From an uncultured Bacillota bacterium (GTDB lineage: Bacteria > Bacillota > Dehalobacteriia > UBA7702), in NCBI GenBank assembly GCA_902796855.1, contig CADBQN010000004.1, positions 1 to 37,576 of the forward strand: a stretch of DNA of 37,576 nt, read 5' to 3'. The notes under the pieces were generated by a model. It was not told the DNA's origin, ran no database searches, and saw only the letters and a program-made list of their open reading frames with translations. The translations under genes were made by a program, and so were the position numbers. The first letter of the stretch is position 1. The number at the start of each line of letters is the position of its first letter. Positions 150 through 35,810 of this stretch are shown in pieces.

Positions 150-797
150 TTACTGCGTCAGCAGTTCCAGCACTCTGTCGACGGCTTCGGCGGCGTCTTC
201 GGCATAGGACGTGGCGCCGATCCGCTTGGCCCAGCGCTTCGTCACCGGCGCGCCGCCGACCATCGTTTTATACTTTTCGCGGATGCCGCGGTTCTTTAAT
301 TCTTCTTCCAGATTTTTCTGCTGCACCATCGTCGTTGTCAGCAGCGCGGAGGTGCCGATGATATCGGCGCTGTTCGCTTCGGCCTCATCGACGATGGTCT
401 TTACCGGCACGTCGCGGCCGAGGTCGATGACGTTGATGCCCTGAGTCCTCAGGAGGGATACGACGATCCCCTTGCCGATATCGTGAACGTCTCCCTCCAC
501 GGTGGCCAGCACCATCGTGCCTTTGACGGCGCTCTCGCTCCCGTCGGCGGAGAGCTCGTCGATGTAGGCGCTCATATCCTTCATGATATCCGCCGCCATG
601 ATCAGCTCCGGCAGGAACAGCTCCCCGCGGCCAAAGCCGTCGCCGACCTCGCGGATGCCGGCGCTGAATCCCTCGGACAGCAGTTCGATCAAGTTCATAC
701 CTTCTTTCTGCGCTTTTCGCACCGTTTCTTTTCCCGCTTCGGCGTCGCATTGTTTAATCGCGGAAATCGCGTCTTTGATCAAAGCTTCTTTACTCAT
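150..797 (-). CDS. mtbC: dimethylamine corrinoid protein MtbC
   Basis: This 215-residue protein is a methyltransferase-associated corrinoid protein. It carries the methyl group on Co(I)/Co(III)-cobamide between a methylamine:corrinoid methyltransferase and a downstream acceptor enzyme. The N-terminal helical cap (about 1-90) is followed by a B12-binding Rossmann domain with the DxHxxG signature GDVHDIG (His105 is the predicted lower cobalt ligand), then an SxL-type loop (TSALLTT) and a GG motif (VGGAPVT). The length matches MtbC/MttC/MtmC family members, which are about 210-220 residues. The ATG at 797 follows an AGGAG ribosome binding site and lies 36 nt after the mtbB stop, so the two are co-transcribed. 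Pairing with mtbB makes MtbC the best name; sequence alone does not fully exclude MttC or another methyl-donor specificity. It is cytoplasmic. Confidence 0.87.
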   Translation of the reverse strand: MSKEALIKDAISAIKQCDAEAGKETVRKAQKEGMNLIELLSEGFSAGIREVGDGFGRGELFLPELIMAADIMKDMSAYIDELSADGSESAVKGTMVLATVEGDVHDIGKGIVVSLLRTQGINVIDLGRDVPVKTIVDEAEANSADIIGTSALLTTTMVQQKNLEEELKNRGIREKYKTMVGGAPVTKRWAKRIGATSYAEDAAEAVDRVLELLTQ

Positions 798-833: not shown

Positions 834-2225
834 TCAAAGGGAAGCCCAATTTCTGAACTTCGAAACGGAGTTAATTTCAATATCGAGAAGTTCGGCGATC
901 CGCGCCTTGGCCAGCAGCGCTACGGCCGATTCGGGCCGGGCGTTGGTTTCGCCGATGTTCAGTTCGTTGCGGATATCCCGCATCACGGAAGAATCGTGGA
1001 GATCTTCCAGACTGATTTTCAGCCGATCCGCCACGTATCGCTTCGCGTCGTCAATTTTCAGTTTCTTCGCCATCTGCGCCCGGGCGACCAGATCTCCGGC
1101 CGTCCGAATACCGCTCATGCCGGCGGAAACTTCGTGGTTGATGGGCATTCCGTAGCAGTCGCCGACGCCGATCTACAAGCCGTCGGCGTGGGCAATTTCC
1201 ACCAGGGCTTTATCGGCCCGGGAGGCGGCGTCCAGAGGGACGGAATCCGTCAGCGGCATGGCGCAGACGCCCATGCCGACATTGGGATGAATCGGGATAT
1301 CACTCACTTCGGCACAGGCCTTGATGAAGGTGACGACCCGGGCGATGTTCCAGGGGAAGGACATGCTGCTGTTGGTGTTCACGGTGGGGCCAAAGATATC
1401 GACGCCGGCCTTTTCCGCAACTTTTACCTGCTCATGGGGGTAGAGCCCGGCCAGGCGCTGTCCCTCAAATTCCAGCTCACCGTGCATGCCCAGATAGAAC
1501 TCACCGGCCATACCCGCTTCCACCGGAAAATCAGGATGCATTTCCTTGATTTTTTTCACGGCCTTAAAGGCGGCGAGGGCGTCGGCGTCGCCGGAAGCCC
1601 CGACGGTATCCAGATTGATGCCGTCCGCTCCGGCCTCATACATCCGGTGAGCGACGGTGACAATGTCTTTTACGGCGTGTTCCACGGCGATTTCCTGAGC
1701 TTCCCGGGCTTCGTCGATCTTCCCGGCGGGGAGGAGCTCCGCCCAGTTGCCGACGGGGCCGTCGGGTTTGGTGTAGAGCCCCAAATTGGGCATGGCGCCG
1801 TAAAACACGGGGATGATCGTATTGAGCTGAGCGTGGTGCATGGCACAGACCTCATCGTGGATGATGGGTTTGATGGGTTTAAAGCTGTAGTCGATGTGGG
1901 CCAGCTCCGCCGTGTCCATGCAGAGGATTTTTTCGTCGATCATCAGCGCCGTCGTGCGGTCGATGGAAACGCCGCAGCGGGTGGAGACTTTGAGCGTCCC
2001 CTCGTCGTTGGTCACGACGACTTCCTTCCCCGGGTCCACGGTGACAAATTTCTGCGGCATGGTGCAGATTTCCAAAAGATACTCCCGCTCGTCCGCGGCG
2101 AGGGGCGGGATTTTTCCGCGCTCCGCGGCGTCTTCCGTCCCCAAATCAATTTCCTCGCGGATCTCAGCGGCGGTCATGGTGTCGCCGTAGCCGTCGCCAT
2201 AGCGAATAAAGTATTTCTCTGCCAT
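834..2225 (-). CDS. mtbB: dimethylamine:corrinoid methyltransferase MtbB with in-frame amber (pyrrolysine) codon
   Basis: It transfers a methyl group from dimethylamine to the corrinoid protein MtbC. The frame opens with ATG at 2225 behind a strong GAGGAGGT site 6 nt away. It reaches TAG at 1173-1175 (codon 351) and continues in the same frame for 112 sense codons to TGA at 834. The total is 463 residues, close to the archaeal MtbB length of about 467. The sequence around the amber, ADGL-TAG-IGVGDCYGMP, continues into SAGMSGIRTAGDLVARAQ, as expected for this family, where pyrrolysine sits at about residue 356 in Methanosarcina. A conventional annotation would report a 350-residue protein plus a separate 104-residue fragment. 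The gene is followed by mtbC and preceded by a MerR regulator. The known family (MtbB) and the codon position are established knowledge. Decoding as pyrrolysine here is inferred, since no pyl genes are in view. Confidence 0.93.
1173..1175 (-). other. in-frame UAG, predicted pyrrolysine codon
   Basis: The codon TAG on the minus strand interrupts mtbB at codon 351. The flanking codons on both sides encode conserved methyltransferase sequence in one frame, and no other stop occurs in the 464 codons. The TAG matches the active-site pyrrolysine of MtbB in place and context. No ribosomal SECIS-like element was needed for this reading, and I could not recognise a clear PYLIS stem by eye. Confidence 0.9.
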
Positions 2226-4216: not shown

Positions 4217-6367
4217 TCATTCCTCCTTCGCGGTTTGATCGCGGAATCCGAGAAACGTAAAATCGATGAGCCGCTCGTCGACGTTGACGCGGCTGACGGC
4301 GACGCGGACGGCGTCGCCCAGGCGATAGCAGACGCGGCTCTTTTTCGCCAGCAGCGTTTTGGTATGGTGATGGTACTCGTACTCGTCCATTTCCAGGTCG
4401 GAAACGTGGACGAGGCCGTTCACCGTGTTTTCCAGCTCCACAAAGAAGCCGTAAGAGGCGACGCCGGAGATGACGCCGTCAAATTCCTCGTCGATCCGGG
4501 AGGCCATATACAGGGCCATTTTCGCCTCAAGGGCTTCCCGCTCGGCGTCCTCGGCGGTTCGCTCGGCGCCGCTGCTCTGAACGGCGGCGTCGCCGAGACG
4601 GCGCGCGAGGCGGCCGCCGTCGTCGTCAAAGGAACCGCGCTCCATGGCCAGCGCCGCTTTGACGACGCGGTGCACGCAGAGGTCGGGATAGCGGCGGATC
4701 GGCGAAGTGAAGTGGCAATAGCACTTTGAGGCCAGGCCGAAATGGCCGCGGTTCTCCGTGGTATAGACGGCGTGGCTCATCGTCCGCAGCGTCATCATTT
4801 CCAGCAGGCCCTGTTCCGGGCGGCCTTCGATCTTCGCCAGCAGCTTCTGGAAGTGGGCGGGGCGAACGTCGTCGCTCCGGCGGCTCAGCGTGTAGCCAAA
4901 GGGCGCGATGAGCGCCGCCAGCTCCAGCGTCTTTTCATCCTCGGGGCGGTCGTGGACGCGGTAGATCAAAGGGATATCCCTGTAAAAGCAGTGGGCGGCG
5001 ACGGTCTCGTTGGCGGCGATCATACACTCCTCGATGATCCCCTCGGCCCGGTCCTGGCGGCGGCGGACGATGTCCACCGTCTCACCGTTTTCGTCGAGAA
5101 CGGCTTTGGCCTCGGCAAAATGGAAGGTAAGGGCGCCGCGCCGCTCCCTTCTTTTGTTCAGGGCTTCCCGGAGGCGGTCAAAATCGAAGAGCAGACCGCG
5201 GATATCGGCAAACCGCTCCGACAGAGTTTCGTCACCGCGGAGCACGGCGTTGACGTCGTCATAGGTCATGCGGTAAGCGGAACGGATCACCGACTCAAAG
5301 AGCCTGTGGCGCAGGACGCGGCCTTTTTCGTCGATCTCCATCTCACAGCTGAGGGTCAGACGGTCCACGCCGGGGTGAAGACTGCAAATGCCGTTGGACA
5401 GCGCCGGCGGCAGCATCGGCAGCACCCGGTCGGGGAAATAGACGCTGGTGCCCCGCCGGTAGGCCTCTTTATCCAGGGCGGAGCCGGCGGTCACGTAGTG
5501 GCTGACGTCGGCGATGTGCACGCCGAGAAGAAAGTGACCGTTGGCGGCGATTTCCAAAGAAACGGCGTCGTCGAGATCGCGGGCGTCGGCGCCGTCGATG
5601 GTCATCAGCAGCCGCTCTCTGAGGTCGACCCGACCTTTGAGATCCTCTTCCGCCGGTTCGGCGCAGAGGGCGGCGGCGCGGAGGACTTTCTCCGGGAATT
5701 CCTCCCGCAGCTGGTATTTGCGGATCACCGTCTCCATGTCGGTGCCCGGCTGGTTCCTGCGGCCGATCACCTCTTTGACGGTACCTTTCAGCGGCGCGTT
5801 CCCCTCGGGCCAGGACGTCACCCTGACGACGACCACGTCGCCGTCGTCAGCGCCGCCGGAGCGGCTTTTCGCCACGGCGACCTCGCGGAAGACACGCTTA
5901 TCCTCGGGAGTGACGACGCCGCCGCCGTTTTCCCGGCGGAAAACGCCGATGATCTCCCCGTTGGCCCGGTTCAGGATCCGGACGACCTCCCCTTCGTCCT
6001 TGCCGTTGACAAAGCGCTGTTCCTGAACGACCCGGGCCAGCACCCGGTCGTTGTGGAGAGCGCCGCGGAGCCCGTCGGCGGGGAGGAAGATATCCCCCCG
6101 GTTCTTCTCGTCGGGGATGAGAAAGGCGTAGCCGCCGCTTTTGCCCTCCACTCTGCCGGAGACGAGGCCCATGTGACGGCAGAGACCGTACCGCTTTTTG
6201 CGGCTGAGAACGACGGAGCCGTCGAGCTCCATGTCGCGGAGCGTCCGGAAAAAGGCGGGGAGCTCCCCTTCGGCCACGTCCATGGCGGCGGCGAGATCCT
6301 CGGCGCGCAGCGGCTGGTAGTCCTTTTGATCCATATATTCAAGAATGTCCCGTCGCAGTTCTCTCAC
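4217..6367 (-). CDS. rnr: ribonuclease R
   Basis: RNase R is a 3'-5' processive exoribonuclease that also degrades structured RNA. The 716-residue protein carries an N-terminal winged-helix region (about 1-60), cold-shock-like domains (about 65-200), the RNB catalytic domain and a C-terminal S1 domain (from about residue 624, [16 protein letters not shown]). The metal-binding aspartates lie in [17 protein letters not shown] near residue 255-270. The protein is somewhat short of the E. coli enzyme but typical of Bacillota. The start is GTG at 6367, immediately after the thiI stop, with only a weak GGAAG site, suggesting translational coupling. It is followed by smpB with an overlap of stop and start in the leader (4217-4219). 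Confidence 0.95.
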
Positions 6368-11423: not shown

Positions 11424-12326
11424 TCACTGTTTTTTCGCGCGTTCCTTCAGGTAAACGTTGAGTGACAGCAGCGAGCCGGCGGAGCCCAGCAAAACGCCGA
11501 ACAGCAGCATAAAGCCGAAGATATAGAAGAAATCGGTGTTGACGCGGACGAGGCTCATAAAGACCAGCACGGAGCTGAATTGATCGATGAACAGGGTATA
11601 GGCGCCGTAGAGCAGGGCCACGGCGATGATGCCGCCGAAAAGCCCCATGACCATCCCGGCGATGCAGAAGGGCCAGCGGATATACCAGTTGGAGGCGCCG
11701 ACATAGCGCATGATGATGATTTCCGATTTGCGGCTGGCCACGGTGACCTTGATGTTGAAGGCCACGATGACGATGGAAGCGACGACGAGGAAAAGGATGA
11801 GGGCGATGCCGAAGTAGCGGATCCATTTCAGCATCTGAAAGAGGTTGTCCACGGTATCGTCGCCGTACTGCGCCTCGGCTACGCCGTCGAGGGCTTCCAG
11901 CTTCTCGGCGACGGGCGCCACGTCATCGGCGCTGTCCGCCGTCACCATATAGGAATCGGGCAGCGGGTTCCGACCGAGACTGCTGAGGAGCGTTTCTGGC
12001 GTTTCTTCCAACTGGGTCGCCATATTGGCCAGCGCCTCTTCTTTGGAGATAAAGGTCACATCGTCGACGCCGTCGATCTCACGAATCGACGTCACCAGCG
12101 CCGAGGCGGTCTCGGCGGGGAGATCTTCTTCCAAAAAGGCCTGGATCTCAACGGTGGACTCGATGTCGTTGGCGAATTTATTGATGTTCAGCACAATGAC
12201 GCTGAACACGCCGCAGACAAAGAGGGTCAGGGCGATGGTGGCGATGGAAGCGATGGTCATCAGGATATTTCGCCGCAGGGACTGGGAAGCCTCGACGAAA
12301 AAGCGGCTAAACGAGCGCAATTTCAT
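11424..12326 (-). CDS. ftsX: cell division protein FtsX
   Basis: FtsX is the permease-like subunit of the FtsEX complex, which couples ATP hydrolysis to peptidoglycan hydrolases at the septum. The 300-residue protein has a transmembrane helix near 25-48, an extracellular domain (about 50-165) and three C-terminal transmembrane segments (from about 165), the FtsX topology. The ATG at 12326 is chosen: GGAGG lies 8 nt upstream and the sequence MKLRSFSRFF follows. It overlaps the last 20 nt of ftsE. An upstream frame start at 12368 would add an unusual extension. The M23 hydrolase gene follows after 22 nt. Confidence 0.95.
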   Translation of the reverse strand: MKLRSFSRFFVEASQSLRRNILMTIASIATIALTLFVCGVFSVIVLNINKFANDIESTVEIQAFLEEDLPAETASALVTSIREIDGVDDVTFISKEEALANMATQLEETPETLLSSLGRNPLPDSYMVTADSADDVAPVAEKLEALDGVAEAQYGDDTVDNLFQMLKWIRYFGIALILFLVVASIVIVAFNIKVTVASRKSEIIIMRYVGASNWYIRWPFCIAGMVMGLFGGIIAVALLYGAYTLFIDQFSSVLVFMSLVRVNTDFFYIFGFMLLFGVLLGSAGSLLSLNVYLKERAKKQ

Positions 12327-13005
12327 GATAGCCACCTCCCTCCTCATCGTAGATGATGCGTCCCTCATGGAGCATGATGACGCGTTTTCTCATTTCATCG
12401 ACGATATCCTGAGCGTGGGTCGCCATGACGACGGTGGTGCCCTTGTCGTTGACGCGTTTCAGCACTTCCATCAGTTCTCTGGCGTTCTGCGGGTCGAGAT
12501 TGCCGGTGGGTTCGTCGGCGATGAGAATGGCGGGGCGGTTCACCAGCGCTCTGGCGATGGCCACGCGCTGCTGTTCGCCGCCGGAGAGTTCCGAGGGGAA
12601 GCTCCCGGCTTTATCGGAGAGGCCGACGACTTCCAAAATCTCCGGAACGCGCTTGCGGATGTCTTTCCGTTTGCATTCCGTCACTTCCATGGCGTAGGCC
12701 ACGTTGGCAAACACCGTTTTCTTCGGCAGCAGGCGGTAATCCTGGAAGACGAGTCCCATGGAACGGCGGTGACGCAGCAGCTCCCGGCGTTTGATCTTTC
12801 TGAGGTTGCGGCCGTTGACGATGATCTTTCCGTCGGTGGCCACTTCCTCCCGGAACAAAAGCCGGATCAGCGTGCTTTTACCGGCGCCGCTGGCGCCGCA
12901 CAGGAAAACGAATTCGCCGGCTTCTATTTCCATGGAAACATGGTCAAGGGCGAGCTGTCCGTTATCGTATTTCTTGGACACGCCCTTCAGGCTGATCATT
13001 TTCAC
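12307..13005 (-). CDS. ftsE: cell division ATP-binding protein FtsE
   Basis: This is the ATPase of FtsEX. In 232 residues it has Walker A GASGAGKST (37-45), Q-loop, signature LSGGEQQRVAIARA and Walker B ILIADEPTGNLDP. The GTG at 13005 is 7 nt after AGGAGG and preferred over the ATG two codons later, which is further away. It is the only gene in the window whose stop codon is TAG (12307-12309). If UAG were read through as pyrrolysine, the protein would gain 43 residues, ending at TAA 12178-12180 inside ftsX in another frame; the extension is rich in His, Arg and Pro and does not look like folded protein. The end at HEIALV fits FtsE. Confidence 0.95.
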   Translation of the reverse strand: MKMISLKGVSKKYDNGQLALDHVSMEIEAGEFVFLCGASGAGKSTLIRLLFREEVATDGKIIVNGRNLRKIKRRELLRHRRSMGLVFQDYRLLPKKTVFANVAYAMEVTECKRKDIRKRVPEILEVVGLSDKAGSFPSELSGGEQQRVAIARALVNRPAILIADEPTGNLDPQNARELMEVLKRVNDKGTTVVMATHAQDIVDEMRKRVIMLHEGRIIYDEEGGGYHEIALV

Positions 13006-19125: not shown

Positions 19126-19126
19126 T
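19091..19126 (-). terminator. intrinsic terminator of secA-prfB
   Basis: A perfect 17-bp palindrome, arms 19091-19107 and 19110-19126, with GC-rich core and A/T-rich base; it reaches the prfB stop codon. The T-run on the minus strand makes it a strong terminator. Confidence 0.9.
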
Positions 19127-20233
19127 TAAATTTCACTGTCCACGGTGGCTTTCAGATAGCCGAAGATAAAGTCGTCGAGATCGCCGTCCATGACGGCGTC
19201 GACGTTGCCCACTTCCACGGAAGTGCGGTGATCCTTCACCATCTTATAGGGCGCGAAAACGTAGGAACGGATCTGGCTTCCCCAGCCGATTTCCTGATGT
19301 TCCCCGCGGATGCCCTGCATCTCGTCTTCCTGCTGCTGACGCTGGCGGTCCAGAAGTTTCGCCTTTAAGAGCTTCAGCGCCTTGTCGAGATTGGCGTGCT
19401 GGGAGCGCTCGTCCTGACAGGTGACGACGATCCCCGTTTCGTAGTGGGTCAGGCGGATGGCGCTGTCGGTCTTGTTGATATGCTGGCCGCCGGCGCCGCT
19501 GGAACGGAACGTGTCCTTTCGGTACTCGTCTTCCTTCAGCTCGATTTCGTCATCAAACTCCACCTGGGGGATGACGTCCAGCGAGGCGAAGGAGGTGTGG
19601 CGGCGTTTCGCCGCGTCGAAGGGAGAAATGCGGACGAGACGATGGACGCCTTTTTCCGCTTTCAGATAGCCGTAGGCGTTCACCCCTTCCACGCCGAAGG
19701 TCACGCTCTTCGTCCCGGCTTCTTCGCCGGGGAGCATATCGATGACATCCACCTTAAAACCGTGTTTCTCACAGTAGCGGGTATACATGCGGTAGAGCAT
19801 GCCGGCCCAGTCCTGGGCCTCCACGCCGCCGCTGCCGGCGTGGATCGACAAAATGGCGTTGTGGCCGTCGTACTTGCCGTTTAAGAGCGTTTCCAGTTCC
19901 AGAGCGTCCACGGCCTTTTCACAGTCGGCGCACTGGGCGGCGACGTCGCCTTCCAGGCTTTCGTCATTCTCGTCCACCGCCAGCTCCCAGTAGGTCTCCA
20001 CGTCTTCCAGCTGGGCTTCGACTTTGAGATACTTTTCTTCTTTGTTTTTCAGCGCCGTCGTTTCCCGCAGCACCGCCTGGGCGGCGTCGCGGTCGTCCCA
20101 AAAACCGGGATCGGCGGCTTTGGCTTCAAGTTCCTCGATTTTTTGTCTCAGGCCGGGCAAGTCAAAGTGCATCCCTCAGATCTGCCAGCCTGCGTTTCAT
20201 TTCGGATAGATTCTGCTTTAAATCCATCAGCAT
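19126..20233 (-). CDS. prfB: peptide chain release factor 2, programmed +1 frameshift
   Basis: RF2 reads UAA and UGA and releases peptide chains. The start is ATG at 20233 behind AAGGGG, 13 nt after the secA stop. The first 23 codons end at an in-frame TGA (20162-20164), in the context CTT TGA C, with an AGG-GA internal Shine-Dalgarno a few nt upstream. A +1 shift on CTTTGAC joins the rest (GAC at 20161), for 368 residues in total. SPF (RISPFDAAKRRH) and GGQ (SGAGGQHINKTDS) motifs are intact. This is the classic autoregulated frameshift of prfB. The usual annotation from the in-frame ATG at 20172 would miss the N-terminus. secA precedes it, as in most Bacillota. Confidence 0.95.
20161..20176 (-). 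promoter_or_regulatory. prfB +1 frameshift site
   Basis: The slip sequence is CTT TGA C (20161-20167 on the minus strand) with AGG (20174-20176) acting as the stimulating Shine-Dalgarno-like sequence. When RF2 is low, ribosomes pause at UGA and shift forward by one nucleotide. Confidence 0.9.
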
Positions 20234-32651: not shown

Positions 32652-32694
32652 ATATAAAATAGACCATTCCATCCCGGCTCTTCCTTCCCGAGCT

Positions 32695-32880
32695 CCGGAA
32701 TCACATGGCAGGTTTCCTGACTTGAGCTTCATCTTACTTTCCGGCCTTCTCCACGCAATACGTGCGCCAATGGCATGTTCGGATTTCATCTTCTCTCACA
32801 GTAGCGGGTGCTGTAACGGATTTCAACCGTTTTTCCTTTTACCCGGAGGGCCACCCCTCCGGCACCGTCCTTATGAAATT
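32695..32880 (-). ncRNA. cobalamin riboswitch
   Basis: On the minus strand the region from about 32880 to 32695 contains the hallmarks of the RF00174-type aptamer: an ACGGTTGAAATCCGTTACAG block followed by CACCCGCTACTGTGAG (about 32797-32833) and the B12 box, AGTCAGGAAACCTGCCA (about 32711-32727). It is positioned between the promoter (32887-32914) and the terminator in front of cobT. Exact ends were not folded by computation. Confidence 0.93.
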
Positions 32881-32886
32881 ATCTCT

Positions 32887-35574: not shown

Positions 35575-35810
35575 TGCTTCCTTAGTCTCAGACCGTTTGG
35601 ATAGCGCTTCACCAAAGTGACAGTGCATTGCATATGCTGCAATACCCCAGCGGCATGATCCGGGCAAACCATACGGCTTCGGCAATTTCCCTTTTCCCTC
35701 CGCCGGTGCCCGCCGTCGCGGAAAGCGCCGCCGGAGCAAAGCCCGGCTTTTCGCCTTTCCCAGGAGCTACTTGTGAAAATCGCGCCTCTATCTTAACTCA
35801 AAACGATATA
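35575..35810 (-). ncRNA. lysine riboswitch (L box)
   Basis: Minus-strand reading from about 35800 shows the lysine aptamer core: AGATAGAGGCGCG then ACAAGTAG (35770-35795), GGGAAAGGCGAAAAGCC, AAATTGCCGAAGCC (about 35672-35690), a GCTGGGG loop, GCAATGCACTGTCAC and GAAGCGCTATCC (about 35595-35640). The TTGACG/TAAGAT promoter precedes it and a terminator follows. Both ends are estimated by eye. It regulates the transporter operon by lysine concentration. Confidence 0.9.

Follow-up and report, generated by a model that had tools for sequence, protein, structure and literature searches.

Avoidance of TAG stop codons is real and family-wide in a group of Bacillota whose genes indicate pyrrolysine decoding, whereas a sister family carrying the same decoding genes uses TAG as freely as relatives that lack them. 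In stretches from 12 genomes, with genes called by codon use, TAG ends 23 of 505 genes (4.6%) in the first family (f1, genomes G000 to G003), 98 of 503 (19.5%) in the pyrrolysine gene-bearing sister family (f2; G004, G006, G008, and G010) and 82 of 412 (19.9%) in relatives without a PylS match (G005, G007, G012, and G016). By Fisher's test, f1 differs from the relatives without pyl (p = 2e-13) and from f2 (p = 7e-14), and f2 does not differ from the relatives without pyl (p = 0.93). Since f2 has pyl genes and nevertheless ends 19.5% of its genes with TAG, pyl genes alone do not cause the avoidance.

The window is the whole stretch of 37,576 nucleotides that was analysed (contig CADBQN010000004.1 of assembly GCA_902796855.1), from an uncultured bacterium of the class Dehalobacteriia; its genome is G000, which forms genus g1 with G001 and G002. 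The original prediction, that selection acts in this genome against a UAG made ambiguous by pyrrolysine, is right in its observation and partly supported in its interpretation, which is worth following because the pyl-bearing sister family shows no avoidance.

Stop Codon Use in the Window

The stop tally of the window was reproduced with an independent, home-made caller based on codon use, which is uncalibrated against an annotated genome. Its 37 rows correspond to 36 genes when mtbB (834-2225), called in two pieces on either side of its TAG, is counted as one, and these end in 14 TAA, 21 TGA, and one TAG (ftsE), the same numbers as first reported. Apart from this stop, the tally contains a single TAG, which lies inside mtbB in the following setting:

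834-2225, minus strand: mtbB, dimethylamine methyltransferase with one in-frame TAG (TIGR02368, 502.4 bits, residues 1-459 of 463 when read through)
1173-1175, minus strand: the mtbB TAG, read as pyrrolysine and not as a stop, on the read-through profile match
1076-1175, minus strand: PYLIS_2 element of mtbB (RF02509, 65.4 bits)
150-797, minus strand: methyltransferase-cognate corrinoid protein adjoining mtbB (TIGR02370, 216.6 bits)

The window also holds a cobalamin riboswitch (32690-32884, minus strand, 94.2 bits) and a lysine riboswitch (35594-35798, minus strand, 82.7 bits); pyrrolysine is made from lysine, and the methyltransferases use cobalamin as their cofactor.

One TAG among 36 stops gives a binomial p of 0.003 against an expectation of 20%, and of 0.057 when the intergenic TAG share of G000 itself (12.1%) serves as the expectation. 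Taken alone, the window count is therefore weak evidence of avoidance, and it is the wider genome sample that decides.

TAG Ends Across the Families

The sample of G000 covers 331 kb (L003 to L022 plus the window). With three pyrrolysine methyltransferase sites removed, genuine TAG ends number 10 of 295 (3.4%), well below the intergenic share (p = 1.1e-7), so that the statement that only ftsE uses TAG holds for the window and gives way in the genome, where nine other sampled genes end likewise. The other f1 genomes have 7 of 137 (5.1%, G003), 1 of 29 (G001), and 5 of 44 (11.4%, G002). Counts in f2 are 22/135 (G006), 32/154 (G010), 8/38 (G004), and 36/176 (G008), and in the relatives without a PylS match 29/149 (G005), 12/61 (G012), 22/106 (G007), and 19/96 (G016), which places the 3.4% of G000 against 19.5-20.8% in the four pyl-lacking genomes. 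When the count is restricted to genes that have a homologue in at least one other genome of the sample, TAG ends are again rarest in f1, with 11/222 against 63/261 in f2 and 27/163 in the relatives lacking pyl; pyrrolysine sites were left in here.

Base composition does not account for this pattern. The GC content of G003 is 44.2%, like that of the relatives, and this genome is still TAG-poor, so GC is not the cause and a GC effect was rejected. In the sample, TAG use was neither normal for the GC content nor equally rare in relatives lacking pyl, the two outcomes that the original prediction had named as counting against it. Gene ends were also compared with the intergenic TAG share of the same genome: G003 has 5.1% against 16.6% (p = 4e-5) and G000 3.4% against 12.1%, no difference was seen in the seven other genomes tested, and in the relatives TAG gene ends match an intergenic share of about 18-21%. 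Similarly, TAG is rarer among first stops in f1 (23/505) than among the next in-frame stops outside called genes (25/246; p = 0.004), with no such difference in eight other genomes (180/915 vs 131/611; p = 0.40); for G000 alone the same comparison gives p = 0.076.

Before pooling, 11 TAG-ended ORFs matching mttB or mtbB references were dropped (three from G000, one from G006, two from G010, and five from G008), and pyrrolysine mtmB genes were left in the count. Four of the dropped f2 rows (L052:15440-16858, L067:13027-14781, 11447-12943, and 4219-4656) probably do end in a genuine TAG stop. Two of them match no reference but one that may itself be an adjacent regulator gene, a third is a full-length homologue without an inner TAG and the fourth a C-terminal mttB part; as they were probably dropped wrongly, TAG in f2 is slightly undercounted. 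Two TAG-ended calls that look antisense, L109:3-524 (G001) and L113:1075-1347 (G002), were kept and count against avoidance. All 26 TAG-ended calls in f1 were inspected singly. Three are known methyltransferases, and new pyrrolysine proteins were rejected, none being found among the 26.

Pyrrolysine Decoding in the Two Families

Profile matches and in-frame TAG codons indicate that G000 decodes pyrrolysine. Both parts of the split pyrrolysyl-tRNA synthetase lie on contig C5 (PylSc, TIGR02367, 320.3 bits; PylSn, TIGR03912, 131.3 bits), and PylD matches its profile with 200.6 bits. PylB and PylC were found by profile in G003 and G006, and the pyl stretch of G000 ends before their position. ARAGORN reports tRNA-Pyl(CUA) in six of seven pyl stretches, including those of G001 to G003; the stretch of G000 takes in PylD but ends short of the site equivalent to pylT in G003. 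A single in-frame TAG occurs in 16 methyltransferase genes of G000: exactly one inner TAG in 10 of 18 mttB-family matches and one in each of six mtbB matches, the single mtmB match having none.

All four f1 genomes sampled carry pyl genes, and cause and lineage are thus inseparable within f1. The sister family very probably includes Dehalobacterium (D. formicoaceticum) and strain DCMF ('Ca. Formimonas warabiya'). One of its members, G008, has PylSn and both mtbB and mttB with in-frame TAG and lacks a PylSc match, probably through an assembly gap; it was grouped with the pyl-bearing f2 genomes on the former features. The number of pyrrolysine genes was rejected as a divider of the families, as it does not separate them: G010 of f2 has at least 13 mttB, seven mtbB, and one mtmB with TAG. 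In 299 genomes drawn from the phylum, PylS exceeds its cut-off in 18, scattered over families, of which 16 lie outside f1.

The order of the pyl genes differs by family (L006, L033, L109, and L116 in f1; L042, L052, and L122 in f2). In G003 it runs PylSc-PylD-tRNA-PylB-PylC-methyltransferase-PylSn, with no mttB adjoining in the stretch read. In f2, with profiles run in G006, it runs tRNA-PylSc-PylB-PylC and then PylSn; immediately after PylSn, G006 has a corrinoid protein gene and an mttB that contains an in-frame TAG. The tRNA-Pyl of f1, at 73 nt, is one nucleotide longer than the 72-nt form of f2. These gene orders would fit, loosely, an uncoupled expression of pyl in f1.

Competition at UAG as the Proposed Explanation

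The reading to which we give somewhat better than even chances is that in f1 UAG still works as a terminator but is avoided, with competition between Pyl-tRNA and release factor 1 (RF1) purging UAG stops. Charged tRNA-Pyl would be present under most growth conditions and would compete with RF1 at every UAG, and genes ending in UAG would thereby often give extended proteins. Selection would then swap UAG for UAA or UGA, with a few UAG ends, including that of ftsE, being tolerated. In g1, a second shortage of TAG and CTA at the DNA level would add to the effect.

Several observations speak against this model. The sister family equals or exceeds f1 in pyrrolysine genes and shows no avoidance, so that selection against UAG is not supported as a general rule for pyrrolysine-decoding genomes; TAG is scarce in all frames in g1, and G002 has 11.4% TAG ends, in 44 genes only. 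Essential-looking genes keep TAG: the other TAG-ended genes of G000 include S15-like, RimP-like, and AroQ-like proteins (named by eye). TAG-ended genes do not have nearer back-up stops, the median distances being 42 vs 26 codons in G000 and 17 vs 11 in G003. Behind one TAG-ended gene of G000 (L007:3027-3761, plus strand), 804 codons stand open in frame, for the most part on the strand opposite another gene; readthrough at this site would carry a high cost, and the gain of 804 residues argues against efficient readthrough.

In G003, an in-frame GTG stands immediately after the TAG of L029:3496-4926 (minus strand) and starts a frame of 425 codons resembling an FAD oxidoreductase (by eye), so that readthrough would fuse two enzymes. 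The long extensions at this site and at L020:6128-6712 (before an MntP-like gene, by eye) were rejected as such, as they look like the next gene in frame.

A Shortage of TAG at the DNA Level in the Genus

A rival explanation is that mutation, repair or restriction depletes TAG and CTA in the DNA itself, lowering TAG in all frames, with pyrrolysine as a bystander. This is partly true for the genus of the window and adds a complication to the selection claim, as part of the rarity there is not about stops. Out-of-frame TAG stands at 0.20 of expectation in G000, 0.34 in G001, and 0.44 in G002, compared with 0.65-0.77 in nine other genomes. At codon junctions in the G000 sample, T|AG was counted 13 times where codon-order shuffling predicts 313, the mirror CT|A 45 times against 279 and T|GG 209 times against 928. 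Elsewhere, T|AG junctions number 2 of 52 expected in G001, 36 of 108 in G002, and 168 of 406 in G003, the last being like the relatives. The depletion at the G000 junctions is strand-symmetric, and the bias of g1 is therefore at least partly at the DNA level. CTAG is scarce in many bacteria, and it is nearly absent from the intergenic sample of G000 (two seen, observed/expected 0.05). Second in-frame stops in f1 are also poorer in TAG than those of the eight other genomes (25/246 vs 131/611, p = 8e-5).

As the whole explanation, however, a DNA-level shortage is rather unlikely. G003, within f1 and outside g1, has out-of-frame TAG (0.65) and intergenic TAG (0.76) as in the relatives, and yet only 7 of its 137 genes end in TAG against an intergenic 16.6%. 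Even in G000, the 3.4% of first stops lies well under the intergenic 12.1%. We read the data as two layers, a stop-specific avoidance throughout f1 and a DNA-level shortage of TAG and CTA in genus g1.

Release Factors and Chance

UAG is read by RF1 only, and release factor 2, reading UAA and UGA, is encoded in the window:

19126-20172, minus strand: prfB, release factor 2 (TIGR00020, 497.4 bits; cut-off 370)

Full reassignment of UAG with loss of RF1 was rejected, as prfA is above the cut-off in all 17 genomes searched, including G000, with the PxT and GGQ motifs intact in every one. A weak or scarce RF1 in f1, which would make UAG disfavoured regardless of pyrrolysine, is improbable. Twelve alignment columns of RF1 are specific to f1 and would fit it, but several of these changes are conservative (Lys/Arg, Tyr/Phe, Leu/Met), and RF1 exceeds the cut-off in all four f1 genomes with both motifs retained. 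Chance or an ordinary GC effect, for which the p of 0.057 in the window could be cited, is very improbable, being contradicted by 505 sampled genes in four genomes, one of them with a GC content of 44%.

The UAG Stop of ftsE

The single TAG-ended gene of the window overlaps its neighbour as follows:

12307-13005, minus strand: ftsE, GTG start, UAG stop (TIGR02673, 283.5 bits; cut-off 264.85)
12307-12309, minus strand: UAG stop of ftsE; the FtsE profile ends before it, and relatives end there with TAA or TAG
11424-12326, minus strand: ftsX, ATG start, TGA stop, overlapping ftsE by 20 nt (NF038347, 310.6 bits)
12178-12306, minus strand: hypothetical readthrough tail of ftsE, 42 codons followed by TAA, not conserved (12 codons in G001)

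The ATG of ftsX at 12326 is preceded by GGGAGGTGG, and the ftsE TAG (12309 to 12307) falls within the FtsX codons TTT AGC (Phe6 Ser7). The overlap of 20 nt proved exact, as did the extension by 43 residues to 12178 that readthrough would give, namely 42 sense codons plus the UAG residue, with TAA at 12180-12178. The original prediction also held that the UAG cannot change unless ftsX changes too. A one-step change to UAA would indeed alter FtsX Ser7 to Asn, which may slow replacement without forbidding it, but G003 has exactly this arrangement (TTT AAT, an ftsE stop of TAA and Asn in FtsX), and the stop site can thus change.

Comparison with relatives indicates that the ftsE UAG is a genuine terminator. 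Loci were available for 30 of 50 ftsE matches, and in these 30 genomes, G000 included, the gene ends 13 times in TGA, 10 times in TAG, and seven times in TAA; TAG and TAA are frequent here because FtsX codons in the overlap determine the letters of the stop. The 10 TAG-ended copies comprise two in f1 (G000 and G001), one in another pyl-bearing genome (G053), and seven in genomes without a PylS match. A special role for this UAG was accordingly rejected, the tail being unconserved and TAG common at this place in relatives, and the ftsE end is, as far as such comparison tells, one of a handful of ordinary leftover UAG ends and not unique. Programmed pyrrolysine readthrough to an extended FtsE is barely credible: it would be favoured by the occurrence of UAG in a genome with pyrrolysine, by the 42 open codons behind the stop and by the TAG that also ends ftsE in G001, but the tail is 42 residues in G000 against 12 in G001 and is ftsX in another frame, G003 has TAA, TAG-ended ftsE occurs in the seven relatives without a PylS match, and no PYLIS element in Rfam reaches threshold at ftsE, mtbB being the positive case in the window.

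Comparison With Known Systems and Implications

The published picture, according to the part of PMC4153887 drawn on here, is that archaea purge UAG and that bacteria keep 20-30% UAG ends and regulate by substrate. The same portion gives about 4-5% TAG ends for Methanosarcina, 1.6% for 'Ca. M. alvus', 11.3% for M. luminyensis and 20-30% for Acetohalobium arabaticum and other pyrrolysine bacteria, and links low TAG use with pyl genes that are expressed constitutively and high TAG use with regulated ones (PMC4153887). In A. arabaticum, UAG is decoded as pyrrolysine only during growth on trimethylamine (PMC8211752).

As in Methanosarcina and 'Ca. M. alvus', on the same partial account, f1 combines few TAG ends with pyrrolysine in methylamine methyltransferases. 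These organisms are archaea, whereas f1 consists of bacteria with a split PylSn/PylSc and a bacterial RF1. Unlike the archaeal case, f1 is adjoined by a pyl-bearing sister family without TAG avoidance, and extra pyrrolysine proteins as in 'Ca. M. alvus' were absent from the f1 sample. A. arabaticum shares the bacterial split PylS and the pyrrolysine methyltransferases with f1; with its 20-30% TAG ends and trimethylamine-regulated pyl, as far as the excerpted source goes, it is matched in stop use by f2 and not by f1. In the samples, f1 falls with UAG avoiders of the archaeal type (TAG ends of about 5% or less and below pyl-lacking relatives), having 23/505 against 82/412. A literature search, mostly at title and abstract level and with few subscription papers, found no case of UAG avoidance in bacteria.

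It is conceivable, at somewhat less than even chances, that f1 took up the archaeal solution independently, with pyrrolysine mostly switched on and UAG purged, and that f2 keeps about 20% UAG with presumably inducible decoding. A parallel with the gut archaea of PMC4153887 would arise if f1 proved to live in the gut, which is only a lead. If true, about 5% TAG ends in f1 beside about 20% in f2 would show that domain does not dictate the strategy, and a single bacterial class would hold two families that form a natural pair with contrasting strategies. Such a matched pair would help to learn what drives the loss of UAG, be it the frequency of Pyl-tRNA, the number of pyrrolysine genes or the habitat.
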